Source of the DNA: Ruegeria arenilitoris
GTDB lineage: Bacteria; Pseudomonadota; Alphaproteobacteria; Rhodobacterales; Rhodobacteraceae
DNA length: 64,000 nt
NCBI RefSeq assembly: GCF_013035425.1
Contig: NZ_WQHX01000001.1
Coordinates: 1,054,001-1,118,000, forward strand
Reading direction: 5' to 3'
This document shows, piece after piece, positions 43,147 to 59,889 of this stretch (position 1 is its first letter; each line of letters starts with the position of its first letter). The notes below the pieces were generated by a model, which saw nothing but the letters and a program-made list of their open reading frames with translations, made no database searches and had not been told where the DNA came from. A program made the translations under genes and the position numbers.

Positions 43147-45159
43147 ATGAACAAGGCAGTCACCGAAGGCACCGAATTCATGCCACCCGCATTTGCAGAT
43201 GGCTTGGGGGTTTGGTCAAGCGGCGACGGAACACCCGGTTCACCCACGTACGATGGATCGGGGAGCGGCGCTTTTGTACCTGCTGATGCAGACTTCGCAG
43301 GGTGTCTTGAGATATTCAAAACAGAGTCCACGCAGCGGTTGCGGTATATGGGCCAAACTCAGTTGCTGCCGGGGTGCTATTTGCAAATCAAGGCACGAGT
43401 GAAGGCAATTAGTGGTCCATTACCCACAGTCCGTGTTGCAGGATGGGCCGGTGGCGCAGGCGACGCACATGTGACCGGGCTGATCGAGCAGGGCGAGGTT
43501 ATACAACTACACGAGTACGGCAGAGTATATGAAGTTTCGGCGATTGTCGGAAGCGGTAGACGGCAGGGCGTCGATATGCCTTGGGGGTCAGACGCGCTGT
43601 ACGGCCATTTCGGGTTGGATATCAATGGAACGAACGGCGCTGTAATCCGAGTAGACGACATTGAGATCACTGATGTTTCCAACGTGTTCTTGCGGGACAT
43701 GATCGGTTTGGTTGACGTTCGCGATTTCGGTGCAATTGGTGATGGCGTGACCGACGACTCTGCAGCCTTTGCAGCGGCTGATCAGGCAGCGGATGGTCGA
43801 AAAATATACGTTCCGCAAGGAACCTATTTGCTGGAACAAAACACCACCTTGTCGGCTGACGTTGATTTTGATGGTACGGTGACAATGCCGGATGACAAGT
43901 TGTTGGTTCTGACAAAGAGTTATGACTTGCCGACCTACATATCCGCCTTCGGGGATGAAGAACTGGCATTTAAGAAAGCCTTCCAAGCCTTGCTGAATAA
44001 TGCTGACCATGAATCCTTGGACCTAGGCGGGAGAAAGATCGCGGTTACCGAGCCGATTGACATGCAAGCAGCGGTACCGAACCGTTCGACTTACGCGACC
44101 CGCCGCGTGGTGCGAAACGGACAATTTGATGTTAAAAGCAGTAGCGCTTGGGATACCGAGACTTTTACGTCGGTTGCAACTTACAACCCGACCGATCCGT
44201 ACAAACTTTCAAACGTTGCAAACGTTGCGAATATCCCTGTCGGAGCTTTGGTCACCGGGAGTGGCGTGGGGCGCGAGATCTATGTTCGGTCAAAGAATGA
44301 AGGTGCTGGCGAAATTACTCTGAACGCCGCAATTTACGATTCGGTGGGAACTCAGACGTTTACCTTTACCGATTTCAAGTATCTGCTGGACTTCGGTGGT
44401 TTCAGTTCGTTGCAAAAATTCGGCATGGAAGGGATCGAGTTTCAGTGTAATAGCCGTTGCAGTGCAATCCGTCTTTCACCGGGTGGAAACACTTTTGTGC
44501 TTAAAGATTGCTTTGTCAGTCGCCCAAAGGATCGGGGGATCACTTCGATTGGCATCGGATGCCAGGGTATGCTGATCGATGGTTGTCAATTCCTGTCCAG
44601 CGAAGAAGACTTGGACGTAGCTGACCGTAGCTCGATTGCGGTGAACTCCAACGCCAACGACGTCAAACTGCGTCATAACCGGGCAAACCGTTTCCATCAC
44701 TTTGCAGTATTAGGTGGGGATAACAATCTTGTGCTTGGCAACCACTTCTTTCAAGGCGACAGCGCATCAACCGGGGTGCGCAACGCAGGTTTGGTTCTGA
44801 TTGGCGGCTACAATAGTTCATCAATTGCGGAAAATTATGTCGACAACTGTTTTATCCAGTGGACGAATGAGCGTGACGCATCGCCAAACTATAACTCAGG
44901 CTATTCATTCAGTGCGCTGAGTATCACGGATAACATATTCTACGCCAGCGATGTGGAGTCTTGGTTTAGTTTCATAGTTGTGCGTCCTTATGGCAGCGGG
45001 CACTATCTGAATGGTTTGGCCGTCACCGGAAACAAGTTTCGCACCAACGCTGGGTCAATTTCTCGGGTGGATCGGGTCGATACCACTTTTTCCGATTTGA
45101 ACCCTGACAAGTATTCAGCAGTCTCAGGGTTTGAGCTCTGCCGGGACTGCCGCGCATAA
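43147..45159 (+). CDS. Right-handed beta-helix (pectate-lyase-3-like) protein, 3' end displaced by an integrated element
   Basis: 670 aa as it stands. Residues about 20 to 180 resemble a jelly-roll binding region. Next comes the Pectate_lyase_3 start motif VDVRDFGAIGDGVTDDSAAF near residue 195, then many NxF-type beta-helix rungs (for example LRHNRANRFHHFAVLGGDNN, LSITDNIFYAS, LAVTGNKF). No signal peptide. From codon 658 on (after DLNPDKYS) the frame runs out of host sequence and into the element, ending in 13 foreign residues. The original C-terminus lies at 59890-60203. AAAGGGA precedes the ATG. Proteins of this shape act on or bind surface polysaccharide; tail-spike-like roles are possible. 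Confidence 0.8.
   Translation: MNKAVTEGTEFMPPAFADGLGVWSSGDGTPGSPTYDGSGSGAFVPADADFAGCLEIFKTESTQRLRYMGQTQLLPGCYLQIKARVKAISGPLPTVRVAGWAGGAGDAHVTGLIEQGEVIQLHEYGRVYEVSAIVGSGRRQGVDMPWGSDALYGHFGLDINGTNGAVIRVDDIEITDVSNVFLRDMIGLVDVRDFGAIGDGVTDDSAAFAAADQAADGRKIYVPQGTYLLEQNTTLSADVDFDGTVTMPDDKLLVLTKSYDLPTYISAFGDEELAFKKAFQALLNNADHESLDLGGRKIAVTEPIDMQAAVPNRSTYATRRVVRNGQFDVKSSSAWDTETFTSVATYNPTDPYKLSNVANVANIPVGALVTGSGVGREIYVRSKNEGAGEITLNAAIYDSVGTQTFTFTDFKYLLDFGGFSSLQKFGMEGIEFQCNSRCSAIRLSPGGNTFVLKDCFVSRPKDRGITSIGIGCQGMLIDGCQFLSSEEDLDVADRSSIAVNSNANDVKLRHNRANRFHHFAVLGGDNNLVLGNHFFQGDSASTGVRNAGLVLIGGYNSSSIAENYVDNCFIQWTNERDASPNYNSGYSFSALSITDNIFYASDVESWFSFIVVRPYGSGHYLNGLAVTGNKFRTNAGSISRVDRVDTTFSDLNPDKYSAVSGFELCRDCRA
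45104..45118. other. Left attachment site (attL core)
   Basis: CTGACAAGTATTCAG, identical to the copy at 59875-59889. It lies in frame within the beta-helix gene (codons for DKYS). Everything between the two copies is foreign in content, and joining flanks across one copy restores the host frame. Confidence 0.88.
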
Positions 45160-45328
45160 AACACTGAAACACAGGCATAACCTCCTGTTTTCGTTGAAAT
45201 CACAAACTGTGACCGCTGATCGCCCTGCCCAAATCATTGTCCGCAGTTGATCGGGCATGATTGGGGGCGATTATGTAAATCGTGATGCAAACGTTGATGA
45301 ATGGCGGATGCGGTGTTATGTGGGAAGG

Positions 45329-45360
45329 GGCTGAGAGAGCCGTCCAAAACCCTCTCAGCC
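45329..45360. repeat. Inverted repeat upstream of the integrase gene
   Basis: GGCTGAGAG (45329-45337) and CTCTCAGCC (45352-45360), perfect 9-bp arms with a 14-nt loop, ending 30 bp before the integrase ATG. It could be an RNA hairpin in the int leader or a binding site for an excision factor. The rest of 45119-45328 shows no gene. Confidence 0.5.
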
Positions 45361-45390
45361 GGAATCATCGTCAAGCATGAGGACCCAACG

Positions 45391-46818
45391 ATGACTGATC
45401 GGAAGTTATCCGCAAATGAGCGAGCTTTGAAGCTCTTGAATGAAGCTCTTGCAACAGGCGTTCGAAATGAGCGGCGCAAGGCCATTCAACAAGCCATTGA
45501 TGTTTTCGAAGGCAGGCAGGGAAAACCCAGCTCCATCCGAAATATCACTCTCGACAACATGAAACCCGGTGATCGTTTTACCGACCCTGAGCATATGGGT
45601 CTGGTCTTTCGCTGTAACAGTGACGGAGTGCAGGCGTATTACCGTTGGCGCCACCCTGTTTCTGACAAACAGACGGAAACACACATTGGCCGTTACCCAG
45701 ACCTTGCATTGGGTGATATCCGCGACCTGCATTCTGATCTGCTCAGGCAGCGTAAATCCGGCAATATACCAAAAGTGCCAAAGGTGACTGTTCAGGCGGT
45801 CATGTCTGTCAAAGAGATGGTTGACCGATACCTTGAGGAATACGCAAAACCGTTCAAACGAAGCTGGCGGGATGATGAGCGCCTGTTGAACCAGTATCTG
45901 GTCGAACCCTTCGGCGATTACCCTGCAAACGAAATAACGAAAGACATTGTTTCCGGCATTCTCGACACACTGGAGAGTGCGTTGCGCAGTGAGGGCAAGT
46001 CGATGAGGACCAGTCAACTTTTGCGGGCGGTCATGTCGAAAATGTACAATTACGCGATGGCAGTTCCCCTGAACAAAGAGCCACTGTCCGGGCAACCCAT
46101 CAACCGGGTGAGCTGGTTACCTGCAGGATCGACAAACCCTGTCGCGATGACACAGAAGGCCGGATATAAAGCTCAGCGCCATTCTCCAAAGATTGCGGAG
46201 CTCAGAACCTTTTATGAGGTTGCGGCCACAAGATCGGACGAAGACTCTTCCAGTGACGCAATGGCTCGCAAAGTTCTGCAGCTTCAAGCTCTCACTTTTA
46301 CCCGCATAAACGAAGCCTGTGCCGTTGAATGGTCAGAGATCGACTTTGAGGCGGGTACGTGGGAAATCCCCGCCAGCAAGTCAAAGAACCGTCATGCCCA
46401 TAAAGTTATGCTGAGCAGGCAGGCAATGGAGCTGTTGCAATCTCTGGACCCAGACACCGCAAAGTCACCTTTCGTGTTTCCGGCAGCAACCGATCCGCAG
46501 AGGCACATCATCAAAGGTCTCGTCCAGAAGTTTTGGAGAACGCAGAGGCAGGCTGACAGTTCCATCAATCCCAAATTCGGCACACACGGCGTCAGAAGGG
46601 CAGGAGCGGCGTTTGTGAAGCGAGCGGGCGGCAATGAGGATGTGCGGGACAGACTGCTCAATCACGTTGATACAAGCTCTGTTGATCGAATGTATTCCGA
46701 AGGTGAAACTTTGGATGGTGCCGCCCTGAGATATTCGCAACAATGGGCTGATCATCTCGACAGCCTGATATCGTCCAACATCGTCCAAATTCATGAGGCC
46801 CGATCCGATGCAACTTGA
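45391..46818 (+). CDS. int: Tyrosine recombinase / integrase (P4-like)
   Basis: 475 aa. Catalyses integration between the 15-bp core and its copy. The C-terminal catalytic domain shows Arg in LTFTRINEACAVEW, Lys in the beta-hairpin ASKSKNRHAH, the H-x-x-R box FGTHGVRRAGA, and HVDTSSVDRMYSEGE holding the last His and the nucleophilic Tyr. The N-terminal 190 residues include the arm-binding and SAM-like domains (YRWRHPVSDKQTETHIGRYPDL). The ATG has GAGGA seven bases before it. Located next to attL, transcribed inward. Confidence 0.93.
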   Translation: MTDRKLSANERALKLLNEALATGVRNERRKAIQQAIDVFEGRQGKPSSIRNITLDNMKPGDRFTDPEHMGLVFRCNSDGVQAYYRWRHPVSDKQTETHIGRYPDLALGDIRDLHSDLLRQRKSGNIPKVPKVTVQAVMSVKEMVDRYLEEYAKPFKRSWRDDERLLNQYLVEPFGDYPANEITKDIVSGILDTLESALRSEGKSMRTSQLLRAVMSKMYNYAMAVPLNKEPLSGQPINRVSWLPAGSTNPVAMTQKAGYKAQRHSPKIAELRTFYEVAATRSDEDSSSDAMARKVLQLQALTFTRINEACAVEWSEIDFEAGTWEIPASKSKNRHAHKVMLSRQAMELLQSLDPDTAKSPFVFPAATDPQRHIIKGLVQKFWRTQRQADSSINPKFGTHGVRRAGAAFVKRAGGNEDVRDRLLNHVDTSSVDRMYSEGETLDGAALRYSQQWADHLDSLISSNIVQIHEARSDAT

Positions 46819-47470
46819 AAGACCCCCACTCACAACCCTTGCCGAGTTCCACGAAGTTATAAAAGCGTGTGAGGCCGGAGAACACATCCCGGCAACCCAG
46901 AACATGCCAGAACATTATCGCACCCCTGAGGGGCGCTTGATTGCCGCAGTTCGTTACAGGGACGCAATCAAAAATCTTGAGCAGATGGAGATAATCGAAC
47001 AGCCGCTGACAGTACCCGTGTATTCAACGTGGCAGGAAGCGCAGGAGATTGTTTCAGAGTGCCCAGCGGAACCAATACGCACATATAAAGGCACTTCGTA
47101 TTATCTGACTGATGCAGGCGTGAAATATGACTTCGACACGATTGAATACATGAAAAGCGAGATTATCCAGAAAAGCACACTCGAAAAAGCGCTCGCGATG
47201 ATGAAGGCAGAATATTCTGCTCCCGGCAGTGACATGAATCAAAAGAAAGCTGTTGCGTGGAAAGAAGCCGCAGGGCGGATCATTCTCGAAATAATGGACG
47301 ATTACCCGGATCACAGGTCAATGATAAAGGATGCGTTTATTCAATACTGCGCGTGGCAGGCAGAGGAACCAGACCTGCGGAGGGAAATTGAGGAAACGTA
47401 CTTCAGAAAAATATTCTCCAGACCTGCCGTGCAACAGCTCATCGAGGCTCAGGCAAAGAAACAGCCCTGA
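46808..47470 (+). CDS. Hypothetical element protein
   Basis: 220 aa, overlapping the integrase end by 11 nt, with GAGG eight bases before the ATG. Largely helical and charged: TLAEFHEVIKACEAGEHIP, a middle STWQEAQEIV segment, and a C-terminal part with MIKDAFIQYCAWQAEEPDLRR. No domain recognised. Its place between integrase and the first origin-like repeat would suit an excision or replication accessory role, but there is no sequence evidence for that. Confidence 0.75.
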   Translation: MQLERPPLTTLAEFHEVIKACEAGEHIPATQNMPEHYRTPEGRLIAAVRYRDAIKNLEQMEIIEQPLTVPVYSTWQEAQEIVSECPAEPIRTYKGTSYYLTDAGVKYDFDTIEYMKSEIIQKSTLEKALAMMKAEYSAPGSDMNQKKAVAWKEAAGRIILEIMDDYPDHRSMIKDAFIQYCAWQAEEPDLRREIEETYFRKIFSRPAVQQLIEAQAKKQP

Positions 47471-47474
47471 TTCC

Positions 47475-47603
47475 GGGAGGCTGGGAGGCCCATTCCACAC
47501 ATCCGACAAGAGGGGTTTCTTCTGGTTGTATTCCCCAACCCTGCGATGCAACCAGAGGAATCCCCACATATAAAAAAGGTAAAAACAGCCTCCCAGCCTC
47601 CCA
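47475..47603. other. Origin-like dyad core 1
   Basis: Symmetrical block: GGGAGGCTGGGAGG (47475-47488); 33 bp; CTGGTTG (47522-47528); 20 bp; CAACCAG (47549-47555); 33 bp; CCTCCCAGCCTCCCA (47589-47603). The outer boxes are inverted copies of one 7-mer in 8-bp tandem. An AT-rich stretch (ACATATAAAAAAGG) precedes the right pair. The same block recurs at 56547-56680 with the same 34-bp span for the central dyad. Interpreted as a replication origin or a packaging/partition site. Confidence 0.65.
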
Positions 47604-47639
47604 TCCTCTTGATATTGCTGGGGAATACCCCAAAACAAG

Positions 47640-47688
47640 CCTCCCATAAACCTCCCACAAGCCTCCCATAAACCTCCCATAACTCCCA
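47640..47688. repeat. Iteron array 1 (11-bp period)
   Basis: Four CCTCCCA boxes at 47640, 47651, 47662 and 47673, exactly 11 bp apart (CCTCCCATAAA / CCTCCCACAAG / CCTCCCATAAA / CCTCCCATAA), plus a partial fifth (CTCCCA at 47683). One helical turn spacing is typical of sites bound co-operatively by an initiator. Lies between dyad core 1 and the alpA-like gene. Confidence 0.8.
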
Positions 47689-47720: not shown

Positions 47721-47753
47721 ACTTGTCCGACAAGTCACCGTCTTGTCCGACAG
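47721..47753. promoter_or_regulatory. Candidate operator pair upstream of the AlpA-like gene
   Basis: ACTTGTCCGACAAGT (47721-47735) is a 7-bp inverted repeat about one central base. A second, less symmetrical copy TCTTGTCCGACAG follows at 47741-47753; the centres are 20 bp apart, about two helical turns. A half-site TCCGACAAG also occurs at 47502-47510 in dyad core 1. This looks like a repressor operator pair controlling the alpA-helicase-primase transcript. Confidence 0.5.
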
Positions 47754-47836
47754 GCCAGCATGTCGCCGTTCCCGACTGTTATTCGATTCTCATGACCGCC
47801 GCCGCTCATTGGCGGAAACCTGAGGAAATCGAACAG

Positions 47837-48073
47837 ATGACAATCGAACAGAACATTGCAGATGATGAGCTCACTGTTATTGAGCCCGATCTGATGCGCC
47901 TGCCGCGCTTCGTTACCGAAACCGGGATACCGCGCAGCACAGTTTACGACCTCATCCATCGCGGAGAAATCGACGCCATAAAGATTGGTCGGGCAACTTT
48001 TATCCAGATGGAAAGTTACGCCCGGTTTTTGGACCGCCAGCGGTGGAAACCAAACCGGAGGACGGGAGCATGA
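47837..48073 (+). CDS. AlpA-like helix-turn-helix regulator / excisionase
   Basis: 78 aa from the ATG chosen (AGGA ten bases upstream); longer starts at 47792 or 47723 are possible. The AlpA/excisionase MerR-like helix-turn-helix is LMRLPRFVTETGIPRSTVYDLIHRGEIDAIKIGR. AlpA proteins activate int or act as recombination directionality factors in P4-type elements. The stop overlaps the next start (ATGA), tying it to the helicase genes. Confidence 0.8.
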   Translation: MTIEQNIADDELTVIEPDLMRLPRFVTETGIPRSTVYDLIHRGEIDAIKIGRATFIQMESYARFLDRQRWKPNRRTGA

Positions 48074-48738
48074 TTCACGTCGATCTCTCTCCCGATCAGG
48101 AAACAGTCAAAGCCAAAGTTTTGGCGTGGCTGAAATCCGGCAAGCAGCAGATGTTCAGCATTGGCGGCGCTGCAGGGTCTGGCAAAACAACACTGGCGCA
48201 ATCCATTGTTGCTGATGCTGGCCTGCAACCTTTCAACAATGCTCTGTTCTGGCAGCAGATGACACTCGGGAGGCCAAAGCCTCAGGAGAACACATTCTGC
48301 TGTGGAGCTCTCACAAGACGCGCTGCAGGGGTATTGGCTCGCAAGGGGGTAAAGGGTGCCAGAACCATTCATTCGCTCGCATACAACCCGTGGATAAATC
48401 TCACGCCGGAAATAAAGCGGGAGATTGCTGCAACTGAGAAAGAGATTGCCTCGCTTGAGGCAGAAGTTGACGCCCTGACAGAAAAACACGGCACAGACGA
48501 GCATGACTCAGTTGTCAAAACTGTGCGCAAAATGTTTCGGCTGATTGCTCATGTGGACGCTCTGAAAGCGCCGGATTTTCAGTTCAATTCCGAACAGATC
48601 GAACAAACCTCTCTTTTGTTGCTTGATGAAAGCTCAATGATCCCCACGCAGATTTGGCGTGATCTTCTGGGTTCGGGTGTTCGCATTCTGGCAATTGGCG
48701 ATCCGTTCCAGCTCCCACCAGTGGAGGCAGGACGATGA
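48070..48738 (+). CDS. SF1 helicase (RecD/Dda-like), N-terminal half
   Basis: 222 aa. Motif I FSIGGAAGSGKTTLAQS near residue 30; motif II LLLDESSMIP near residue 188; motif III ILAIGDPFQLPPVE at the C-terminus, where the frame stops (VEAGR). These are motifs I to III of a RecD2/Dda-type 5'-3' helicase; the remaining motifs are in the next gene. Start set by GGAGG and ATGA overlap with the AlpA-like gene. Not a decayed copy: all visible motifs are intact. Confidence 0.85.
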   Translation: MIHVDLSPDQETVKAKVLAWLKSGKQQMFSIGGAAGSGKTTLAQSIVADAGLQPFNNALFWQQMTLGRPKPQENTFCCGALTRRAAGVLARKGVKGARTIHSLAYNPWINLTPEIKREIAATEKEIASLEAEVDALTEKHGTDEHDSVVKTVRKMFRLIAHVDALKAPDFQFNSEQIEQTSLLLLDESSMIPTQIWRDLLGSGVRILAIGDPFQLPPVEAGR

Positions 48739-49523
48739 GCACATATTTCAACCTGAGCACATTGGATGCCGAACTGACCAAAATTCATCGGCAGGATGAG
48801 GGCTCTGTCCTTGAGCTCGCAACAAGCCTGCGTTGCGGTAATGGACTCAAGTACGGCGAACATGCCGAAGCTCTGATCCTGCCATATGACCAATGGCAGG
48901 CTGACGTTGTGAAGGCTCCTGACGTGTTCGCAGAGGCAGGTTTCGTGATTGTCGATAAACATGAGACCCGCCGGAAGGTAAACCGGGCAATCCGGGAACT
49001 GCACCTCAACCGCATGACATACAATCCTGAGCCGGGTGATCGTCTGGTTATCTGCCGGAACTGTGCGCAAACCGGGTTGGCGAATGGCGACGTTGTTGAA
49101 GTTTCTGCCGTTGAATGGCGGGAGGATTTCAACGGGTATGCGGTCACTTCGTACACCCATCAGGAAACAGGCGAATCTTTCTCCGGCAAAACAGACGCAT
49201 TTGCCATTCCGGTAAATCGGCTTGCACAGACATACGACCAGAGGCCAACGAAGATTTTCCGCGACGGATTGGACAAAGCCGATCTGCCAATGATCCCGGT
49301 TGATTTCGGATGGGCCGTTACCTGCCACGCTGCACAGGGAAGCGAACGCGATAACGTCATAATCATCGGGAACTGGATGGGCGGTATGGATGCCGAGTCA
49401 AAAGCGCGGTGGATGTACACGGCTTTGACCCGGGCTCGCAAACACGTGCTGGCATACATTGTGCCTTTGCCACCTTTGCCAGCGTGGAAAGCGCGTAACA
49501 GCTCAATTCAGGCGGTTTCGTGA
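48735..49523 (+). CDS. SF1 helicase (RecD/Dda-like), C-terminal half
   Basis: 262 aa. Begins exactly where the previous gene stops (ATGA), with its own GGAGG seven bases before the ATG. YFNLSTLDAELTKIHRQDEGSV corresponds to the segment that follows motif III in intact family members (motif IV region), and the C-terminus carries the UvrD_C_2 part with motif V WAVTCHAAQGSERDNVII and motif VI WMYTALTRARKHVLAYI. The two products presumably assemble into one helicase. Confidence 0.85.
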   Translation: MSTYFNLSTLDAELTKIHRQDEGSVLELATSLRCGNGLKYGEHAEALILPYDQWQADVVKAPDVFAEAGFVIVDKHETRRKVNRAIRELHLNRMTYNPEPGDRLVICRNCAQTGLANGDVVEVSAVEWREDFNGYAVTSYTHQETGESFSGKTDAFAIPVNRLAQTYDQRPTKIFRDGLDKADLPMIPVDFGWAVTCHAAQGSERDNVIIIGNWMGGMDAESKARWMYTALTRARKHVLAYIVPLPPLPAWKARNSSIQAVS

Positions 49524-49632: not shown

Positions 49633-52200
49633 ATGTCAAACCTGACAGACAAATTGAGAGCAGCCGAGCGGCGACACTCTGACAAAATATTGGGTGATAT
49701 CGGAGCCCTGCCCACGTACCCAAATAAACATGCGGTATGCCCCTTGCCCGGGCATGACGATAACAACCCATCGTTTCGATATGATCCTGAGGCTGAGCGG
49801 TGTTTCTGCTCCTGCAGGCCCAACGGAATTACACTGACAGATGTTGTTGCCGAAATCAGGGGCGTAAACACAGGCGACAAAACGGGTTTCGTCAACGCTG
49901 TCAAAGCTGTCGAGCAGATCACAGGCGAGCAGATTCTGGAAAAGCGCGTCAATGGTGCCGCCCGGGTAAATGGGTCGAAACCAACGCCAGAGCAGGAAGC
50001 TGCCGCCGCAAAGCTGGCAGAAGAAAAAGCCGAGCGGGAGAAACAGCAGCAGGCCGAAGTTGCGGCAAAGAGCCGCTGGATTGAGAGCGAGTTGCAACGG
50101 CTGGAACCGATAACCGGAACGCCTGTTGAAACATATCTCCGTCAACATCGCGGCCTGACAGATATGGAGCTGGATTTCCCCAATCTCGGATTTATGCCGG
50201 ATTTCCGCACAAAGCCCGGTGGGAAAGTCTCTCCTGCGATGGTTGCAGTTGTCAGAGATTCCAGCGGCAAAATTACCGGAATGGCGGGAACTCTCCTGAA
50301 CTCCGATGGATCGCCAAAGCGCGACGCCAAAGGCAACAAGATCAAACTGTCATGCGGGAGCCTGAAAGATGGTTTTGTCACTCTCAGGCATCCTGCAGCG
50401 GCGTGTGTGGCGATTGCAGAGGGCATTGAGACCGGGCTGAGCAGAATTGCAGCAGGGCCTGCAGAAGTTCGCGTGTGCGTCGGCATTATCCGCACCAGTG
50501 CCTGCGAGAATGCCACGGGCCGGGTGGAGTTTATTTCAGACGTTGATCAGATCGTCAGAACGCGCCAGCTCGCGAGAGAGCAGGCAAAGAACAACCGGAA
50601 CATAAAAGCATACGTTATTGCGCCGCCTGCATCCTTCGGAGCCAAAGCGGATCTGAATGATGTTTTGATGGAAATGAACGCCGAGCGCGTTTTGGGTCTG
50701 GTCGATGATGGTGACAGAATTCGTGCCGCTCGCAAACACAGTGGCGTTGAGCAACTGACCATCGGATCAGATGTTGAAGTTTCAGACCGGGTACTTGAAC
50801 AGCTCGAAGATTTACACGGCAACATTGCCTTTGCCGAGGGTGCGGCGTGGGCATTCAATGGGCGCATCTGGGAGGCACTGGACGAAAACCGCCTCAAGCG
50901 TCACGTACAACGCTTTGACGGAGCCATTTACCCAACAGCGAGCGGCAAAGATGCCCGGTATTCCCTGACCAGCGGCAAAGTGAAATCTGTCATTGAATTA
51001 CTGTACACGAAGCGATCCGATGAGGACTTTTTTACAAGCAGCCCAACGGGTGTCTCATGTCGCAATTGTTTCGTGTCTGTGCGCCCCTTGCCCGGTGGAG
51101 AATGGACCGCGACAGCAGAACCTCATGCCCGAAACCAGAGAGCACGGCATTACGTCAACGCAGATTGGCATCAGGAGAGACCTGCAGACTTTGATCATCG
51201 CTTGAAGGCAAGCGACTTGAACAGGTTTCTGAGGGGTCTGTTCTCATCTGCAAAAACTCTTGAGCGAATCCAACGCGAACAGCCGCACCTGAATTTCACG
51301 CAGGAAACAGCAGGCAAAGATGTTCGGGATCGTATCCGCGCCATTCTTGAGGTTGCTGCATGTGCCATTCTCGGGCACGGAACCCGGTTGAGTCATCCGA
51401 AGGCTGCAATCTTTGTCGGGCAAGGTGGCAGTGGTAAATCCACCGTTGGCGAACTTCTTTGCGCCCTGATTGATCCCAAATCGGTTTCATCTGTCCCGCC
51501 GAGCGTTATGGGCGAGCGTTTCGGGATGCCTGCCTTGCGTGGAGCTGCCCTCAATTATGCAGAGGAAGTGTCATCGAAGGCATTGGGCGGCGACGTTTTC
51601 AAACGAGTTGTGACCGGAAACATTTGCAACGCCGAGCCAAAGAACAAAGACGCCTTTTATTTTCGCCCAACCGCGCAGCACCTGTTCATAACAAACAAAG
51701 TTCCAACCTTTGCAGGCGGCGTTGATACCGGGCTTGAGCGCCGGGTTCTGATCATTCCTTTTGACAATCGTTATGCCGACACAGCCGACAAAGTTGCCAT
51801 TGGTGATTATGACGCGCTGGCAGATCGCAATCTGCTGCAAAAGATCGTTGATAATGATCTCGACCTTTTTCTGGCACTGGTCATTGATGCCGGGTTGGGC
51901 CTGCTCAAAGCTGGTGCTTTGACAGAACCGGAAACCGCGAAGATCGCAAAGAACGATTGGCTTGATGACTCAGACCGGGTTCGCGCGTGGGCACGGCGGC
52001 ATTTGGTTGTTCAAGCCAATTCGAAGCTGACTGTTGAGGACGCATACAACGCTTTCAGAGATTGGTGGGCTGACGAAGGTCTGTCGGTGGGAATGCCTGC
52101 AAAGAACAGTTTCTCATTCCGGCTGTCCAATCATGAGCCTGCCCTGAAACGCGGCCCTGACAGCGTGAAGGCCCATTTCATCAACGCGAAACTGAAATGA
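49633..52200 (+). CDS. Primase-helicase (CHC2 zinc finger, Toprim, D5/SF3 helicase)
   Basis: 855 aa, the replication initiator candidate of the element. Zinc-binding primase start: CPLPGHDDNNPSF and CFCSC (residues 37 to 58). Toprim-type primase core with ACVAIAEGIETGLS near residue 257 and FISDVDQIVR (metal Asp). D5_N-like region about 440 to 560. SF3 helicase: Walker A IFVGQGGSGKSTVGE near residue 595, RGAALNYAEEVSSKA (Walker B-like), FRPTAQHLFITNKVP (motif C, Asn) and GLERRVLIIPFDNRY (Arg finger). The layout parallels the alpha protein of P4. Confidence 0.92.
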   Translation: MSNLTDKLRAAERRHSDKILGDIGALPTYPNKHAVCPLPGHDDNNPSFRYDPEAERCFCSCRPNGITLTDVVAEIRGVNTGDKTGFVNAVKAVEQITGEQILEKRVNGAARVNGSKPTPEQEAAAAKLAEEKAEREKQQQAEVAAKSRWIESELQRLEPITGTPVETYLRQHRGLTDMELDFPNLGFMPDFRTKPGGKVSPAMVAVVRDSSGKITGMAGTLLNSDGSPKRDAKGNKIKLSCGSLKDGFVTLRHPAAACVAIAEGIETGLSRIAAGPAEVRVCVGIIRTSACENATGRVEFISDVDQIVRTRQLAREQAKNNRNIKAYVIAPPASFGAKADLNDVLMEMNAERVLGLVDDGDRIRAARKHSGVEQLTIGSDVEVSDRVLEQLEDLHGNIAFAEGAAWAFNGRIWEALDENRLKRHVQRFDGAIYPTASGKDARYSLTSGKVKSVIELLYTKRSDEDFFTSSPTGVSCRNCFVSVRPLPGGEWTATAEPHARNQRARHYVNADWHQERPADFDHRLKASDLNRFLRGLFSSAKTLERIQREQPHLNFTQETAGKDVRDRIRAILEVAACAILGHGTRLSHPKAAIFVGQGGSGKSTVGELLCALIDPKSVSSVPPSVMGERFGMPALRGAALNYAEEVSSKALGGDVFKRVVTGNICNAEPKNKDAFYFRPTAQHLFITNKVPTFAGGVDTGLERRVLIIPFDNRYADTADKVAIGDYDALADRNLLQKIVDNDLDLFLALVIDAGLGLLKAGALTEPETAKIAKNDWLDDSDRVRAWARRHLVVQANSKLTVEDAYNAFRDWWADEGLSVGMPAKNSFSFRLSNHEPALKRGPDSVKAHFINAKLK

Positions 52201-52535
52201 GGGCAGGGGCAGTGGATTTACTCGACACACTTTTGAACGACGAACTGGGGGAACAAAAGGACAGAGAATGTTACAAACACCTGCCGCCCCTTCGTCGCCT
52301 TGTTCACAAGCTGCGTACCATCGCGGATTTGGACGAGCTCGACGCCCTCAGGAATGCGCCGACCTTTGGATACCGCCCTCAATGGAGCGGGAGAGAGCTG
52401 GAAGTCATCCACTCCCGCAGAGATTGGCTGATACGCAATCAGCGATCTGCTGCCAGCAATTCCCAACAAAACAACGGGAATAATCGAATCGACCTTTTGA
52501 ACCCGTCAACGAATGACTCACGCAAACAGAGATGA
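52197..52535 (+). CDS. Hypothetical element protein
   Basis: 112 aa, ATGA overlap with the primase-helicase stop. Helical N-terminus (VDLLDTLLNDELGEQKDRE), a central DLDELDALRNAPTFGYRPQ, and an Asn/Gln/Ser-rich tail. No family recognised. Tight coupling suggests it serves replication. Confidence 0.7.
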   Translation: MRAGAVDLLDTLLNDELGEQKDRECYKHLPPLRRLVHKLRTIADLDELDALRNAPTFGYRPQWSGRELEVIHSRRDWLIRNQRSAASNSQQNNGNNRIDLLNPSTNDSRKQR

Positions 52536-52543
52536 GAGGAAAA

Positions 52544-52759
52544 ATGAGCGCAATTGATGAACTCAACACACGAACAGAAGCGGAGGCGAAAGTTCATGAC
52601 GCAATCGCCCTTCGTATGAATGTGACGTTGCTTGCCGATGGACAGAAAGAGCTTGCGTACCTGCAGGCCGCTCACATCAGGGCCGGATCGCCCAAACGGG
52701 TAAAGATCAGGCTCAACCTCCCAACAAAATACAAACGGAGGGCTGAGTACGAAATCTGA
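52544..52759 (+). CDS. Small hypothetical element protein
   Basis: 71 aa from the ATG with GAGAGG just upstream. Begins MSAIDELNTRTEAEAKVHD and ends in a basic segment (KRVKIRLNLPTKYKRR). No family recognised. Confidence 0.6.
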   Translation: MSAIDELNTRTEAEAKVHDAIALRMNVTLLADGQKELAYLQAAHIRAGSPKRVKIRLNLPTKYKRRAEYEI

Positions 52760-52861
52760 CAACGCGGCACGGTTGGAGAAAACCACAAAGCCAACCGTGC
52801 CAACGATGACCATCCCTGAGGGGATACCCCCTCATAACACATGCAAGAGGAATATGACGAT

Positions 52862-53140
52862 ATGTCAAAATCTGGCGTAATGTTCGATCACTTTTTGAAA
52901 GCAACCCTGCAGGGGATCGAAAAGAACGGTTGGCCGTGGGAGCACGGCGAGCTCAGCGCATACGAAGTGCAAAACTGTTTTTACCACATGCTCAAGTGGC
53001 AACTCATCGAAGTCGGCGAATGGGAAAGCGGGCCGTTCACGCTGACAGCCAAAGGCCGCGAATATCTCAAAACTTTGAAAAAGGCGTATGCGCCCGTCAC
53101 TGACTGGTCAGACGAAGTGCCTTTTGAAGCCGAAGCGTAA
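52862..53140 (+). CDS. Small hypothetical element protein
   Basis: 92 aa. GIEKNGWPWEHGELSAYEVQ and a wing-like GPFTLTAKGREYLKTL suggest a winged-helix fold of the kind seen in small phage regulators, with the acidic tail DWSDEVPFEAEA. An upstream ATG at 52841 is possible; AGAGGA fits either start. An imperfect copy of the CCCTGAGGGG palindrome lies just before it (52813-52827). Confidence 0.6.
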   Translation: MSKSGVMFDHFLKATLQGIEKNGWPWEHGELSAYEVQNCFYHMLKWQLIEVGEWESGPFTLTAKGREYLKTLKKAYAPVTDWSDEVPFEAEA

Positions 53141-53158
53141 TCAACAGGAGAACTTGCA

Positions 53159-53596
53159 ATGAAAACCGAACGGAAAATAACGCCACTGCCGAACTTTACC
53201 ATTCGACCTGCATTCATGCCGATGAATGGCCAGCATCAACATCCGTTGGTTGTGACTGCGGAGGGTTGGGAGGCGATTTGCACCATTGCAGACCGCCCTG
53301 CGTGGCGTGATCCAAAAATGCTGCAGATAACGCTGTCGGAGGCTTTGGCCGCTGCCGATGCTCTGGACGCTGCAAAACTGGCCTGCACAGATGAGGATGA
53401 GGCCGTGCTGCGTTCCAGTTATTCCCACGCATTCCGATGGTCGGGAGGGGTGCTCGTGCATCCGGTTTACTGGTCGCTTGATGCTTTGGGCGATGGATAC
53501 TGGACTCCATACATTGATGAGGCGTGGACGCCGGACCCTGATGCCGATTGGTTGCCGGATGATGGCGAAATAACGGGCTCCGAGATTCCGTTCTGA
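53159..53596 (+). CDS. Hypothetical element protein
   Basis: 145 aa with AGGAGA before the ATG. Contains LVVTAEGWEAICTIADRPAWRDPKM, a tryptophan-rich acidic C-terminal half (YWSLDALGDGYWTPYIDEAW) and ends DDGEITGSEIPF. Strong negative charge late in the protein could suggest DNA mimicry, but no family is recognised. Confidence 0.6.
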   Translation: MKTERKITPLPNFTIRPAFMPMNGQHQHPLVVTAEGWEAICTIADRPAWRDPKMLQITLSEALAAADALDAAKLACTDEDEAVLRSSYSHAFRWSGGVLVHPVYWSLDALGDGYWTPYIDEAWTPDPDADWLPDDGEITGSEIPF

Positions 53597-53683
53597 GCAA
53601 AAAGAGCGTTTGGGTCGGAGCTTGTTTTTCCGGCCCAAACGGTAATGCACCCCTCAAGGGGTACAATAAAGAGTGACCTGTTT

Positions 53684-54250
53684 ATGTTTGACTCACCAAA
53701 ACTGCCCTCAGGCCCGTTTGAAATTATTGTGAGCGATCCGCCGTGGCGCTTTGCGTCCAATTCCGATGCCAAACCCGGCAGGAATGCCAGACGCCATTAT
53801 CCCTGCATGACAGATGCCGAGCTGATGGCCCTGCCTGTCGCTGAGAGCGCCGCTGAGAACGCTTTGCTGTTCGGATGGACAACTGCCCCAATGATGGAGC
53901 GTTCCCTGCGTGTGTTCAGCGCGTGGGGCTTCAAATACGTGTCTCAGCTCGTTTGGACAAAGGAACGGATCGGAACCGGGTTCTGGGTACGCAATCAGCA
54001 CGAGATTTGCCTGCTGATGAAGCGTGGAAAGTTCCCTTGCCCAAAGCCAGCTCCGTTTGAAACTTCCATCATCGGCCCGTGGCAGGGCAGGCACAGTGAA
54101 AAACCTGAATTTCTGCAGGATCGGATTGATCAGATTTGGCCTGCAGTTCCCAAACTGGAAATGTTTGCACGCCGGGTGCGGCCCGGTTGGGCGCTCTTTG
54201 GCAATGAGATTCCCAATGAAAGTCGAGCACAGGAGGTAATATCGACATGA
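53684..54250 (+). CDS. MT-A70 family DNA adenine methyltransferase
   Basis: 188 aa from MFDSPKLPSG. The catalytic DPPW motif is in IIVSDPPWRFASN near residue 18; then HYPCMTDAELMALPV, LLFGWTTAPMMERSLRVFSAWGF, VWTKERIGTGFWVRNQHE and FARRVRPGWALFGNEI. These are hallmarks of small phage MT-A70 enzymes, which methylate N6 of adenine in DNA, often protecting the element from host restriction. A CACCCCTCAAGGGGTAC palindrome lies 20 bp upstream. An earlier start through that palindrome looks less likely. Confidence 0.88.
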   Translation: MFDSPKLPSGPFEIIVSDPPWRFASNSDAKPGRNARRHYPCMTDAELMALPVAESAAENALLFGWTTAPMMERSLRVFSAWGFKYVSQLVWTKERIGTGFWVRNQHEICLLMKRGKFPCPKPAPFETSIIGPWQGRHSEKPEFLQDRIDQIWPAVPKLEMFARRVRPGWALFGNEIPNESRAQEVIST

Positions 54251-54432
54251 AACAACCAACAATGAAACAGATCAAAGAGCTGAGCGAGCGACTTGATGCC
54301 CAAATCCGCAACAGCGAGGCGCGGATCATGATGATGGAGGACGCAGAACTCGGGCGCATGATCAAAGCAGAACTGAGAGCTCAGGAGATTGACGAGCAGT
54401 ATGCAGAATGGATGGAGCGCAAGCACTCATGA
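54247..54432 (+). CDS. Small coiled-coil element protein
   Basis: 61 aa, ATGA overlap with the methyltransferase and a full AGGAGG upstream. Almost wholly helical: IKELSERLDAQIRNSEARI, then EDAELGRMIKAELRAQEI. Probably a dimeric coiled coil. Function unknown. Confidence 0.6.
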   Translation: MKQPTMKQIKELSERLDAQIRNSEARIMMMEDAELGRMIKAELRAQEIDEQYAEWMERKHS

Positions 54433-54602
54433 GGAAATTACCCAGACACATCCAACGCGCCATTGACCGCAAGGTTGCAGCAACGGGCAGAGGGCTGAAC
54501 AAACTGCCCAAAGCCAGCACTCAGAATGATGACCCATTCGGCCTTGAGGAAACTGAAAACTCCGAATCCGAAGATTCCAGCGAAAGGGAGCGTCATGAAT
54601 AA
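54429..54602 (+). CDS. Small hypothetical element protein
   Basis: 57 aa, starting in an ATGA overlap. Basic first half (RKLPRHIQRAIDRKVAATGR), acidic serine-rich second half (ENSESEDSSERERHE). The charge split suggests nucleic-acid contact with a regulatory tail. No family recognised. Confidence 0.5.
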   Translation: MRKLPRHIQRAIDRKVAATGRGLNKLPKASTQNDDPFGLEETENSESEDSSERERHE

Positions 54603-54864
54603 ACAGGCGCGAGAAATCATTGAGAACGCACGGGCGGCGGTTGAACAATCCGCAGGCCCAAAGATGAGAAAATGCCTGCAACCAATGGAGGACACGGTTT
54701 CGCTCGGCATTACGAAAGACCCTGTGACCAATCAGTTGATGATAATCTCAACGCCCAAATTCAACGCCATGTGTGATTTTCACAGAGGGGAAATTCTTGA
54801 GCAAGCAGCCAAACTTTTGCTTGAGATGAAAGAGAGGGGCACGAGCGGCGACAGTATCCCTTGA
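54595..54864 (+). CDS. Small hypothetical element protein
   Basis: 89 aa starting MNKQAREIIENAR, 8-nt overlap with the preceding frame. Contains SLGITKDPVTNQLMIISTPKFN and a helical end (ILEQAAKLLLEMKERG). The stop codon lies inside a CCCTTGAGGGGTAC palindrome. Last gene of the plus-strand operon. Confidence 0.55.
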   Translation: MNKQAREIIENARAAVEQSAGPKMRKCLQPMEDTVSLGITKDPVTNQLMIISTPKFNAMCDFHRGEILEQAAKLLLEMKERGTSGDSIP

Positions 54865-54960: not shown

Positions 54961-54981
54961 GCACCCCTCAGGGGGTGCTTT
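54961..54981 (+). terminator. Palindrome used as terminator of the plus-strand operon
   Basis: GCACCCC-TCAG-GGGGTGC followed by TTTTCG: a short GC-rich hairpin with a T run, placed between the end of the plus-strand operon and the convergent zinc-protein gene, whose stop codon it overlaps. It is a member of the dispersed palindrome family of this element. Confidence 0.55.
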
Positions 54982-55444
54982 TCGTTTCAGCGTCCTTTGC
55001 GGCGTAATGGGCACGGTTGCGGCAACCATCGCTGCAATACTTCTGATTTGGGCGGCGGCGGTCAAAGGTGGCAGAGCAAACCGGGCATGTGAGGATGCCG
55101 CAATCAGTTTCGCGCTTCTTTGCCCATTCCCACGCCTTTGAACCTTCCACGAGACCTGCAGATGGAGTTGGGCGACCTTCACGCATTCCACGGCGACCCT
55201 TCTGCCTTTTGCGTTCTTCGGCTTTCCATTCTTCGACGCCAGAACCCAACGCCGTCAATTTCTCTGCGAGCTGCAATTGAAACGGAGTTGGCTTTTCGAA
55301 TTCTTCGAGCTTCAACAATTCCTGCAAGCTCAAAATCAAGCGCGTTGCTTTACGGGCAGCGCGTGGTGGCTGACCGGGGAACAACATATCCGCGACGCAG
55401 GCGATATCCGCTGCAGAAAATAACTCAACCGGGTCTTTGGGCAT
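54968..55444 (-). CDS. Hypothetical element protein with a C-terminal zinc ribbon
   Basis: 158 aa. The N-terminal part holds helical IACVADMLFPGQPPRAARKA and a linker rich in basic residues (ERKRQKGRRGMREGR). The C-terminal zinc site is CPVCSATFDRRRPNQKYCSDGC (C-x2-C...C-x3-C, residues about 123 to 144), as in small DNA-binding fingers. GAGGAAAA precedes the ATG. Function unknown. Confidence 0.65.
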   Translation of the reverse strand: MPKDPVELFSAADIACVADMLFPGQPPRAARKATRLILSLQELLKLEEFEKPTPFQLQLAEKLTALGSGVEEWKAEERKRQKGRRGMREGRPTPSAGLVEGSKAWEWAKKRETDCGILTCPVCSATFDRRRPNQKYCSDGCRNRAHYAAKDAETKSTP

Positions 55445-55567
55445 TACTCACTTTTCCTCATGCAGTGGCCGGAGCCGACCCTTTCCATATGGTCACGGTT
55501 TTGCCGTTGACAACACCCCCTTTTTCAACGGGTGAATGTCTGGGTAATGCACCCCCTGAGGGGTACA

Positions 55568-55672: not shown

Positions 55673-55675
55673 TTA

Positions 55676-56311
55676 TCAATCCCCAATCAGAAATTCAGCG
55701 CGTTCCCGGCCTGCAGCGTCATCCTCCCGGCACTGCATCTCATAACGAAGCCAATAAATGGCGTGATTGATGTTCTCACAATCCTGCCCAACTTCCTCAA
55801 GCAACTGAGCGGTCAATTCAATCATTGGGCCGATGATCTCAGCCTTTTGCGCAGGCGTGGAGCCCTTCAACTTTTCCTGCAGAACTTCGAACAGCTCAGA
55901 AGGCAATGATGCGCCTTTGGGCGAAACCGATGTGGCACGAGCCGACCTCTCGGCCCTGATCGCTTCAAGATGGGCTGTCCACTCCCGAGCGAATGGCGCG
56001 GCAGTCTCTTTGCCCTGAGGCGTCAGGCGAGCAACAAGAACCTTTCGCGACATGTCAGGCTTTGGCGGCGTCATAACCGGAAAATCGTATGACAGCTCAA
56101 TATCGCCGCGCTGCTCCAATGTGCGCAGGGCTCGCTTTGTCTTTCGCGTGATCTCTTTCCGATCCTGTGAATATTCTTCGTCGTATTCATTCCCGGCATA
56201 AATGTCGGCAAGATCACGAGCAGCAAGCGCAACGTCGCTTTCGGCATACTTGAACAGCTCAAGCAGCAGCAGACGCATCTGCCGACTGTATCGGTGGTTT
56301 GGGGTATTCAT
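55676..56311 (-). CDS. Winged-helix-like element regulator (hypothetical)
   Basis: 211 aa. The N-terminal half reads as a winged helix: YSRQMRLLLLELFKYAESD, then KEITRKTKRALRTLEQRGDIELSYD and a wing MSRKVLVARLTPQGKET. The C-terminal half is helical (SELFEVLQEKLKGSTPAQKAEI). Its own leader holds two GCACCCCTCAGGGGGTAC palindromes (56348 and 56409), reminiscent of autoregulation. It could be the element's repressor or the activator of packaging genes; this is inferred from position. Confidence 0.65.
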   Translation of the reverse strand: MNTPNHRYSRQMRLLLLELFKYAESDVALAARDLADIYAGNEYDEEYSQDRKEITRKTKRALRTLEQRGDIELSYDFPVMTPPKPDMSRKVLVARLTPQGKETAAPFAREWTAHLEAIRAERSARATSVSPKGASLPSELFEVLQEKLKGSTPAQKAEIIGPMIELTAQLLEEVGQDCENINHAIYWLRYEMQCREDDAAGRERAEFLIGD

Positions 56312-56347
56312 GTTTTCCTCATGTGTGTTTGGACGATTGGACGAAAT

Positions 56348-56426
56348 GCACCCCTCAGGGGGTACAGTAAAGAGTATGGGGATTGATCAGAACAGTTTCA
56401 ACCTTGTTGCACCCCTCAGGGGGTAC
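56348..56426. repeat. Two copies of the element palindrome upstream of the regulator
   Basis: GCACCCCTCAGGGGGTAC at 56348-56365 and an identical copy at 56409-56426, 61 bp apart. Related copies occur at 46921-46935, 52813-52827 (imperfect), 53648-53664, 54857-54871, 54961-54977 and 55549-55566. The core CCCCTSAGGGG is palindromic about a central base; several copies are followed by AATAAAGAGT-like sequence. Confidence 0.75.
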
Positions 56427-56471
56427 AATAACGCCTCCGACATTTACCATAATGACGATTATGGGGCGTTC

Positions 56472-56510
56472 CGGGAGGCTTTGGGAGGTCTTTGGGAGGC
56501 TTGTGGGAGG
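56472..56510. repeat. Iteron array 2 (inverted relative to array 1)
   Basis: GGGAGG boxes at 56472 (with C before), 56482, 56493 and 56504 (each TGGGAGG), spaced 10, 11 and 11 bp. These are the reverse complement of the CCTCCCA iterons at 47640-47688 and so point the opposite way. They lie on the left of dyad core 2, whereas array 1 lies on the right of core 1. Confidence 0.8.
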
Positions 56511-56546
56511 CTGGGTTTGGTCATTTGTTCATAAATATCAATGCAA

Positions 56547-56680
56547 TGGGAGGCTGGGAGGTCTTTTCTCACTCTTTTATATACCGGGATTCTTCTGGTT
56601 GAGTAAATAACCAGCAAGATACAACCAGAGGTCTCCATTCCCCCTCGCGATAAAATCGCAAAAAACCTCCCAGCCTCCCA
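56547..56680. other. Origin-like dyad core 2
   Basis: Same design as core 1: TGGGAGGCTGGGAGG (56547-56561); 33 bp; CTGGTTG (56595-56601); 20 bp; CAACCAG (56622-56628); 37 bp; CCTCCCAGCCTCCCA (56666-56680). The words TTCTTCTGGTTG and CAACCAGAGG are shared with core 1 in the same orientation while the loop sequence differs. The flanking AT-rich TTTTATATA suits a melting region. It abuts the 3' end of the packaging operon. Confidence 0.65.
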
Positions 56681-56684
56681 CAGA

Positions 56685-57002
56685 TCAAGCTGCCTTTATG
56701 AAATCCTCGGGATGAGCAACGGCATCCTGCCAGCCGTTCTTTCTCTGTTCCATCGCCCATTTCCGGATGGTTTCTCCATCAACACAATTGGCGAGATCGG
56801 CAACCGTGAACAGGTCATTGCTGAAACAGAGATACGCTCTGGCAATGTGAACAATGTCTGCCCGTTCATATGGTGCGGCGGTTGTACAATGGCCGAGCGC
56901 GTCCATTACAACGGTGTGCAGGATACTCTGCCAAAACAACTGATATCTGTTCATGTCAGATGTAATGCCGCCCCTGTGACTGCGTTTGATATCATGTGGC
57001 AC
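56685..57002 (-). CDS. Small hypothetical protein at the end of the packaging operon
   Basis: 105 aa from a GTG with a full AGGAGGG ten bases upstream, inside the end of the nuclease gene. Contains MNRYQLFWQSILHTVVMDALG, APYERADIVHIARAYLCFSN and DLFTVADLANCVDGETIRKW, the last with a helix-turn-helix look. No family recognised. A start at the internal Met (56954) is possible but has no good site. Confidence 0.65.
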   Translation of the reverse strand: MPHDIKRSHRGGITSDMNRYQLFWQSILHTVVMDALGHCTTAAPYERADIVHIARAYLCFSNDLFTVADLANCVDGETIRKWAMEQRKNGWQDAVAHPEDFIKAA

Positions 57003-57005
57003 TGC

Positions 57006-59256: not shown

Positions 59257-59710
59257 TGGCAACAACCTGAGCAATGGCAGGGGTCTGCTCATACAGAGCG
59301 AGACGTTCCTGCAGTTTGGCGTTTTCTTCGGCGATGGCCTCCATTGCCTCTTTGTTGGCTTTCAGAACCGCCTGCAGTTCTTCGTCGCCAGCAACAACAT
59401 CCGGAGCAAGCCGAGACCCAACCCATCGAACAACTGAGCTGTCACGCTCCTGCAGCAGTTCCTGCAGGGCTTCGATAAACTCACCCTCAAGTTCTCGGAT
59501 GCGATCCAAAGTGGACATACTGCCCTCAATGACGTGTCGCGCCTCCTGCAACTTTGCGGCCTCAAGAGCGTCCTGTTCCTTTTTGACAATCTCAGCACGT
59601 TCTTTTGGTCGCTTCGACTTTTTACCTGCACTGGACGCCCGATTGTCACCGGGCTTGAAACTGCCCGGTGTTGGTCCGCTTCCGGCGGGCCTGCCGGGTT
59701 TGTTGGCCAT
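59231..59710 (-). CDS. TerS-like small terminase / DNA-recognition protein
   Basis: 159 aa. Basic glycine/proline-rich start (KPGRPAGSGPTPGSFKPGDN, as in DUF5681-type phage proteins), followed by long helices predicted to form a coiled coil (KERAEIVKKEQDALEAAKL; LEGEFIEALQELLQERDSS; EENAKLQERLALYEQ). First gene of the packaging operon, directly upstream of the ATPase with a 26-nt overlap, the usual place for terS. GAGGGAT precedes the ATG. Identity as small terminase is by context and shape, not by clear homology. Confidence 0.65.
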   Translation of the reverse strand: MANKPGRPAGSGPTPGSFKPGDNRASSAGKKSKRPKERAEIVKKEQDALEAAKLQEARHVIEGSMSTLDRIRELEGEFIEALQELLQERDSSVVRWVGSRLAPDVVAGDEELQAVLKANKEAMEAIAEENAKLQERLALYEQTPAIAQVVANATANKGT

Positions 59711-59712
59711 TT

Positions 59713-59771
59713 CCGTTATCCCTCATGTTACGCAAACCGAATGCGTTATCGGTTTTTGGGTTTGCGTTATC
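59713..59771. promoter_or_regulatory. Control region of the packaging operon
   Basis: Between terS and attR lie ACGCAAACC (59730-59738) and GGTTTGCGT (59759-59767), perfect 9-bp arms with a 20-bp spacer. Three GTTATC words occur at 59715, 59745 and 59766, the last two as GCGTTATC 21 bp apart. This is the only non-coding DNA before the operon and probably holds its promoter and activator or repressor sites. Confidence 0.45.
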
Positions 59772-59874
59772 TTTTTATGCCATAACTGCACCCTCCGTGG
59801 AAATAACGTTGATGAAATCAACAACGCCTGCAGCACAGAGCCATAAAAATAAAGGGTTTGAGCAATTCAGATCG

Positions 59875-59889
59875 CTGACAAGTATTCAG
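59875..59889. other. Right attachment site (attR core)
   Basis: CTGACAAGTATTCAG, identical to 45104-45118. Host coding sequence resumes directly after it in the same frame (DKYS followed by GVNFSNNTF). Confidence 0.88.

Follow-up and report, generated by a model that had tools for sequence, protein, structure and literature searches.

The Ruegeria arenilitoris contig NZ_WQHX01000001.1 (assembly GCF_013035425.1) harbors, within the 64,000-nucleotide stretch analyzed here (positions 1,054,001 to 1,118,000 of the forward strand, hereafter the window), a 14.77-kb insertion flanked by 14-bp direct repeats, TGACAAGTATTCAG. We propose, with a probability of about 0.75, that this insertion represents a capsid-less phage satellite in its integrated state, which would package its own DNA, by means of its own split terminase, into the heads of a helper phage. 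The proposal draws on the insertion at an att site, on the gene content of the element and on an operon of separate ATPase and nuclease genes that recurs in other delimited elements, and it is further supported by the restriction and methylation cargo of relatives and by early genes that resemble those of the phage-inducible chromosomal minimalist islands (PICMIs). The phage-satellite pattern described in an initial annotation of this DNA is thus borne out by gene content, from which we infer the behavior of the element as a satellite, namely excision, packaging and use of a helper.

The element was found to be precisely delimited. Across the whole window, TGACAAGTATTCAG occurs twice on the forward strand and not at all on the reverse strand, and the limits proposed initially (45104-59889) were right to one base (Table 1). 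The left copy falls within a 695-amino acid (aa) open reading frame (ORF), the final residues of which are encoded by the element, and which belongs to an interrupted host gene that is presumably pectate-lyase-like. Fusing the flanks at the repeat core yielded a 786-aa ORF that aligned with a 794-aa gene of a congener at 81% identity over 785 columns with no gaps, and a 114-residue stretch beginning five residues before the junction matched the congener gene at 64% identity (E 1e-47). The host gene was matched in 53 of the 54 genomes of the genus, forming a single frame of 700-856 aa in 52 of them (one congener having a stop within the match) and lying in two pieces in the other; the copy in the genome of the window is the shortest of the single frames (700 aa, the next being 766 aa). 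Because the rejoined flanks align free of gaps and the gene has a match in nearly every genome of the genus, the element is a clean insertion truncating a gene that is kept across the genus.

Pfam and PHROG scans of 20 called genes of the element (the 64-aa ORF at 54408-54602 was not among them) confirmed all of the integrase, AlpA, SF1 helicase, primase-helicase, MT-A70 methyltransferase and TerL ATPase genes named in the initial annotation. Its claim that portal, protease, capsid, tail and lysis genes are absent also held, as the 20 genes matched no such family bar weak PHROG matches of the N-terminal half of the helicase (a terminase small subunit at E 0.0018, a head protease at E 0.011 and another TerL at E 0.5), which we take as noise from a shared P-loop or coiled coil. 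Furthermore, a profile of the portals of nine relatives gave no match among the 147 element ORFs that reach 40 aa or more, and so neither approach uncovered the structural genes that had been named as evidence against a satellite.

The operon that sets this element apart lies on the minus strand and encodes, when read inward from its right-hand limit, a TerS-like protein, a TerL ATPase, a 272-aa protein (p272) and a nuclease. The TerS-like gene was assigned by position; when aligned in two rows, it is 28% identical to the gene occupying that place in a second genome of the genus (G350, described below). In the ATPase, the P-loop residues G82 and K83 are invariant in a 13-row alignment. The 182-aa product of the last gene matched, at the sequence level, only a PHROG of unknown function (phrog_27743), and is predicted to be the terminase nuclease subunit: its AlphaFold2 (AF2) model, made from a two-row alignment (predicted local distance difference test score, pLDDT, 71.6), matches the PhiV-1 terminase (E 2e-5) and the terminase nucleases of human cytomegalovirus (HCMV), P22 and SPP1, as well as poxvirus resolvases. 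Three acidic residues of this protein, D11, D69 and D167, are invariant in a six-row alignment.

The gene between the ATPase and the nuclease, which the initial annotation did not single out, encodes p272 and is the one long gene of the element to match no family at all. We searched for p272 in 390 genomes of the order at a threshold of E 0.01 and obtained matches in four, of which, besides the window's own genome, only G350 was strong (E 4e-14), the other two having E 0.002 and containing stops. G350 harbors the same four genes in the same order, encoding a TerS-like protein (141 aa), an ATPase (310 aa, 39% identity), a p268 (28%) and a nuclease (167 aa, 36%). Its operon adjoins a tRNA-Gln gene, the end of which is repeated over 15 bp beyond an integrase gene 16.8 kb away; between the operon and this distal repeat lie genes for a family A DNA polymerase and for proteins with hydrolase and racemase domains. 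A comparable arrangement was found in G778, a genome that belongs to the same class but to a different family, where an integrase, an AlpA-like gene and a putative primase are followed by a CCTCCGCCAA-like repeat array, a TerS-like gene, an ATPase, a 224-aa gene and a 199-aa nuclease (the AlpA, primase and TerS names being assigned by eye). The 224-aa gene is a recognizable copy of the adjoining nuclease (E 2e-20 against the nuclease profile; with a very small database, 66 bits and E 1e-21) that lacks a catalytic Asp, reading VGVSVG where the nuclease reads VGVDLG at what we take to be the first catalytic position of the RNase H fold.

p272 occupies the same slot as this nuclease copy, the order of strands and helices in its model is RNase H-like, and it has no Asp at the first catalytic position, which makes a catalytically inactive nuclease copy its likely identity. 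The model behind this assignment is weak (pLDDT 45), the alignment that places the missing Asp has an identity of only 10-11%, and a comparison with a viral structure library gave 14 named terminases among the 50 matches listed, with one major capsid protein at rank 7. The nuclease profile does not detect p272, and profile comparison gives no support to a link between the two.

To what extent is such an operon shared by other bacteria? In 295 Rhodobacteraceae genomes, the ATPase (threshold E 1e-10) was matched in 16, the window's own included, and 16 further loci were retrieved from the 15 others. The fullest of these loci reads integrase, primase or helicase, portal, winged-helix-like gene, small genes, TerS, ATPase, nuclease, cargo and tRNA, where the small genes and TerS were named by eye. 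A portal gene is present in 10 of the 16 loci (as two ORFs in L046; the portal of L042 matches phrog_145 at E 4e-101) and is lacking in the window; the portal profile found none in L033, L034, L038, L039, L041 and L045, of which L034 and L038 reach a contig end. That most Rhodobacteraceae relatives also bear a portal gene changes the account given by the initial annotation. In L033 (L033:11418-12014), the genes flanking the portal position are kept and the portal is gone, as if deleted. The L036 portal (L036:12257-13606) has 44% identity with its counterpart in Dinoroseobacter phage vB_DshS-R5C and 46% with the one in Pseudanabaena phage Pan1 (43-46% across the Dinoroseobacter phages R5C and R26L and phage Pan1), and the similarity to R5C suggests R5C-like phages as candidate helpers for portal-bearing elements of this kind.

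In fourteen loci that contain a tRNA gene, we looked for another stretch repeating the tRNA sequence. Such a repeat, 20-55 bp long, was found in nine, delimiting elements of 10.5-15.9 kb, and was not found in the other five within the stretch examined. Eight delimited elements were scanned against PHROGs in two sets, comprising 130 ORFs (128 of the 138 listed, plus two ORFs of L033 that were added; the ten left out opposed or overlapped likely genes). Integrase, ATPase and nuclease families were each matched by four members per set, and portal families by three in the first set; methyltransferases and a restriction endonuclease were also seen. No capsid or tail family was present among the best 25 of 49 and the best 25 of 73 families, and ten further genes of L036 and L041 yielded no capsid and one weak tape-measure match (E 0.0035).

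Relatives were also found beyond the family. A broad ATPase profile gave 26 matches in 25 of 385 genomes sampled from the class, of which 22 lie in frames of at least 395 aa, those of the window, G828 and G778 in frames of 278-331 aa, and that of G075 in a broken frame of 176 aa. A narrower profile matched nine of 299 genomes sampled from the phylum, all in frames of 249-331 aa (one with an in-frame stop), and seven of the nine lie outside the class. The neighborhoods of these seven, read largely by eye and to the contig limits, contain integrase, nuclease, ATPase, TerS-like, primase and repressor-like genes. A tRNA is present within the examined stretch in five of the seven, and repeats of 50-51 bp delimit two of these five (12.2 and 10.4 kb); with G828, delimited by a 51-bp repeat (15.2 kb), tRNA-derived repeats were found in three of the six loci of this second test set. 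Overall, twelve elements of 10.4-15.9 kb are bounded by tRNA-derived repeats of 20-55 bp. When 46 ORFs of L193, L197, L195 and L100 were scanned against PHROGs, integrase and nuclease families were matched by five members each and the ATPase family by four, with no capsid, portal or tail among the best 25 of 89 families. A separate nuclease ORF accompanies the ATPase in 26 of the 28 loci examined (on the opposite strand in L101, and overlapping the ATPase in a different frame in L046), and the remaining two, L044 and L192, stop at a contig end after the ATPase. The idea that the element represents a distinct type in Rhodobacterales is therefore upheld insofar as the type recurs in other Rhodobacteraceae, but it is not confined to that order, as it is found in other Pseudomonadota as well.

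In a tree of 47 ATPase rows, the 16 Rhodobacteraceae rows and G828 form a 17-row clade (support 98/98), within which the portal-less G828, L041, L045, L038 and L039 group together (100/100; L038 is cut), and the window pairs with G350 (98/98). The order of the 17-row clade, the window and G350 pair, phages of Thermus and Meiothermus, and G778 with G816 has no support. Salinibacter, Streptomyces and Rhodococcus also have ATPase relatives, on small plasmids of 11-16 kb (NC_014026.1, NZ_CP030359.1, NZ_CP108186.1 and NZ_CP025962.1), which could be plasmid-type satellites.

These comparisons bear on what else the element could be. TerL, primase and integrase are common in prophages, and the closest phage relatives of the TerL, those of Thermus phage Riverbug and Meiothermus phages MMP7 and MMP17 (33-37% identity to the window and 41-45% to L193), belong to full phages, so that a prophage remnant with its structural genes deleted deserves consideration. 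Those phages, however, encode one fused TerL of 415-417 aa, together with portal, head and tail-sheath genes in Riverbug and MMP17, and of the viral contigs in IMG/VR (80 loci kept of 183 found), 74 of 79 ATPase-matching ORFs are at least 350 aa long, the other five being cut by a contig end. Searched by tblastn against 50,697 phage records, the window nuclease found nothing at E 1e-3; that of L036 had no match at E 1e-5, and that of L193 matched three records. A remnant also fits poorly with the same split operon and capsid-poor content, among the families listed, in independently integrated, repeat-delimited elements, and the larger parent prophage envisaged initially was not found; we therefore regard a remnant as unlikely.

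Slightly less probable still is that the element is a capsid-forming phage-inducible chromosomal island (cf-PICI) that lost its capsid genes and represents no separate type. The cf-PICIs do carry terminase, portal and capsid genes (PMC10690885, in the passages compared), and the primase relatives L048-L051 adjoin, as judged by eye, a GpA-type TerL, a lambda-like portal and methylases, and would be another element type or prophages. Nevertheless, even these four, the best of the primase relatives, show an identity of only 31-32%, and the split ATPases group apart in the clade and the pair described above, in a tree built without cf-PICI TerL rows. The terminase genes might, alternatively, act as dominant-negative inhibitors of phage packaging in an element that moves by other means, which would accord with the restriction or methylation genes of several relatives and with a p272 that may be catalytically degenerate; the invariant P-loop and acidic residues of the ATPase and nuclease argue against it, making this the least probable of the three.

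A capsid-less satellite with its own terminase thus remains our preferred interpretation, and the element has the general features of satellites: it is integrated, bounded by att sites, carries regulation and replication genes and has no full set of virion genes. PICIs carry integrase, regulator and replication genes, cf-PICIs carry int, AlpA and primase as well, and P4-like satellites are marked by Sid, Psu, delta and epsilon, none of which appeared by name in the PHROG scans, where no search aimed at these families was made. The comparison with described systems that follows is limited to passages of PMC10690885, PMC10803314, PMC11389934, PMC13376191 and PMC13230959. PICMIs of the Vibrionaceae integrate at fis, the type element having six genes, and are modeled as an integrase, an AlpA (PF05930 or PF12728) and a primase with DUF3987/PF13148 or DUF5906/PF19263; their excision needs alpA, int and an int-overlapping gene (PMC10803314). 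Similar to these, our element is small, marine and devoid of capsid genes, and has int, an int-overlapping gene (225 aa, placed like iolg of PICMIs), alpA and a DUF5906 primase in that order; PF05930 scores below its cut-off on the AlpA-type protein (14.4 bits versus 21) and PF13148 (DUF3987) is absent from the Pfam matches of the primase-helicase. In contrast to PICMIs, its att site lies inside a gene other than fis and it has a terminase operon, the word terminase being absent from the main text of PMC10803314.

With cf-PICIs, which encode terminase, capsid, protease, portal and connectors (PMC10690885), the element shares its own terminase parts (the ATPase and nuclease, with TerS by position only), whereas capsid, protease, portal and connector genes were not found in it and its large terminase is split into separate genes. 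It resembles the TerS-redirecting PICIs of the SaPI type (PMC10690885) in having a TerS-like gene and no capsid, yet encodes an ATPase and a nuclease of its own, which makes dependence on a helper's large terminase doubtful. The Mulch and Flayer satellites of Streptomyces likewise encode terminase subunits, but carry portal and major capsid genes and are described as being without key replication genes (PMC10690885). No capsid-less satellite with a split terminase is described in the literature searched, the coverage of which did not extend to work on VEIME, SatelliteFinder or tycheposons.

Table 1. Features of the element and of its insertion site (window coordinates)
Feature	Position	Strand	Basis or remark
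Host gene, interrupted	43072..45159	+	3' part restarts at 59876, stops at 60203
attL core TGACAAGTATTCAG	45105-45118	+	direct-repeat search
Tyrosine integrase, 505 aa	45301..46818	+	PF00589 E 1.7e-17, 64.2 bits, above cut-off; phrog_1 E 5e-39
225-aa gene	46793..47470	+	overlaps int end; no family match (Pfam, PHROGs)
Iteron/operator block A	47475..47680	+	CCTCCCA arrays and inverted repeat, upstream of alpA
AlpA/Xis-type HTH (helix-turn-helix) protein	47723..48073	+	PF12728 28.7 bits (cut-off 27); phrog_66
SF1 Dda-like helicase, N-terminal half, separate ORF	48043..48738	+	phrog_325 positions 458-620
SF1 helicase, C-terminal half	48735..49523	+	phrog_325 positions 624-867
Primase-helicase, 855 aa	49633..52200	+	DUF7146; DUF5906/PF19263 E 8.2e-15, 55.9 bits, cut-off 27.6
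Four small genes (112, 75, 99, 145 aa)	52197..53596	+	no family match (Pfam, PHROGs)
MT-A70 methyltransferase	53645..54250	+	PF05063 E 3e-24
Small ORFs (61, 64, 112 aa)	54247..54864	+	61- and 112-aa: no family match; 64-aa outside scan
158-aa protein	54968..55444	-	C-terminus resembles a zinc finger by eye; HNH-endonuclease PHROG matched weakly (E 4e-6)
211-aa gene	55676..56311	-	no family match (Pfam, PHROGs)
Iteron/operator block B	56482..56680	-	inverted copy of block A (74% over 120 nt), upstream of 211-aa gene
105-aa gene	56685..57002	-	no family match (Pfam, PHROGs)
Terminase nuclease subunit (predicted), 182 aa	57006..57554	-	phrog_27743 E 3e-14 and predicted fold
p272, middle subunit, 272 aa	57551..58369	-	no family match; proposed degenerate nuclease
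TerL ATPase subunit, 308 aa	58366..59292	-	Terminase_6N E 5.5e-13; phrog_7579 E 1.7e-26
TerS-like gene, 159 aa	59231..59710	-	position only; no family match
attR core TGACAAGTATTCAG	59876-59889	+	direct-repeat search
CCCCTCAGGGG-type palindromes	46923, 52814, 53650, 54858, 54964, 55552, 56351, 56412

Several further features of the element are collected in Table 1. The two helicase halves overlap by 4 nt (48735-48738) and cover consecutive parts of one PHROG profile, which could reflect a genuine split of the gene, a programmed frameshift or an error in the sequence. The true start of the MT-A70 gene may be further in, since its first codons overlap a repeat. Repeat blocks A and B, each placed upstream of an operon, are reminiscent of replication or operator regions that come in pairs, as ori and crr do in P4, and the CCCCTCAGGGG-type palindrome occurs at about eight places, mostly intergenic; a loose form of its pattern gave 16 matches inside the element, many of them overlapping, and three outside it, which lack the shared TGCA/TACA flanks.

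Taken together, these genes suggest how a satellite of this kind may operate. By analogy with PICMIs, AlpA and the integrase, perhaps along with the int-overlapping gene, would excise the element upon infection by a helper. Given the primase, the helicase and the iterons, the primase-helicase would then replicate it, probably from the CCTCCCA blocks, and the MT-A70 methyltransferase may mark or protect the DNA. As the ATPase, nuclease and TerS-like genes are kept, the TerS-like protein and a three-part large terminase (ATPase, p272 and nuclease) would recognize, pump and cut the element's DNA, with p272, its catalysis most likely lost, now serving as a structural or docking subunit. Proheads, portals, tails and lysis would be supplied by the helper; in the Rhodobacteraceae relatives that have a portal gene, the entry vertex of the prohead would come from the element as well. 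An infecting phage may act as the helper, since the window's own genome contains one PF04860 portal and a further two terminase matches, and the one capsid family searched for, PF05065, gave no match. That portal lies near a 472-aa TerL frame (G000:C1:64503-67175), and the locus is possibly a gene-transfer-agent cluster.

To our knowledge, known satellites either borrow the large terminase of their helper or bring a whole head. We lean, on balance, towards a broader view, in which capsid-less satellites with a complete large terminase split into ATPase and nuclease are widespread and undescribed across Pseudomonadota, the lineage of the window, G350 and G778 having added a dead nuclease copy, and the portal-bearing elements of Rhodobacteraceae taking over helper proheads at the entry vertex instead of redirecting the helper's motor. 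If true, a complete motor without a shell would constitute a third satellite strategy, and a fourth would be to bring a motor along with a portal. With ATPase, nuclease and nuclease-like subunits that are separate by nature, the terminase motor could be dissected piece by piece, and the docking of a motor on a foreign portal could be put to the test. A terminase operon that lacks capsid genes and sits inside a repeat-delimited island would, moreover, offer a simple signature with which to search for such elements, which screens that require capsid genes or a fis site would miss.

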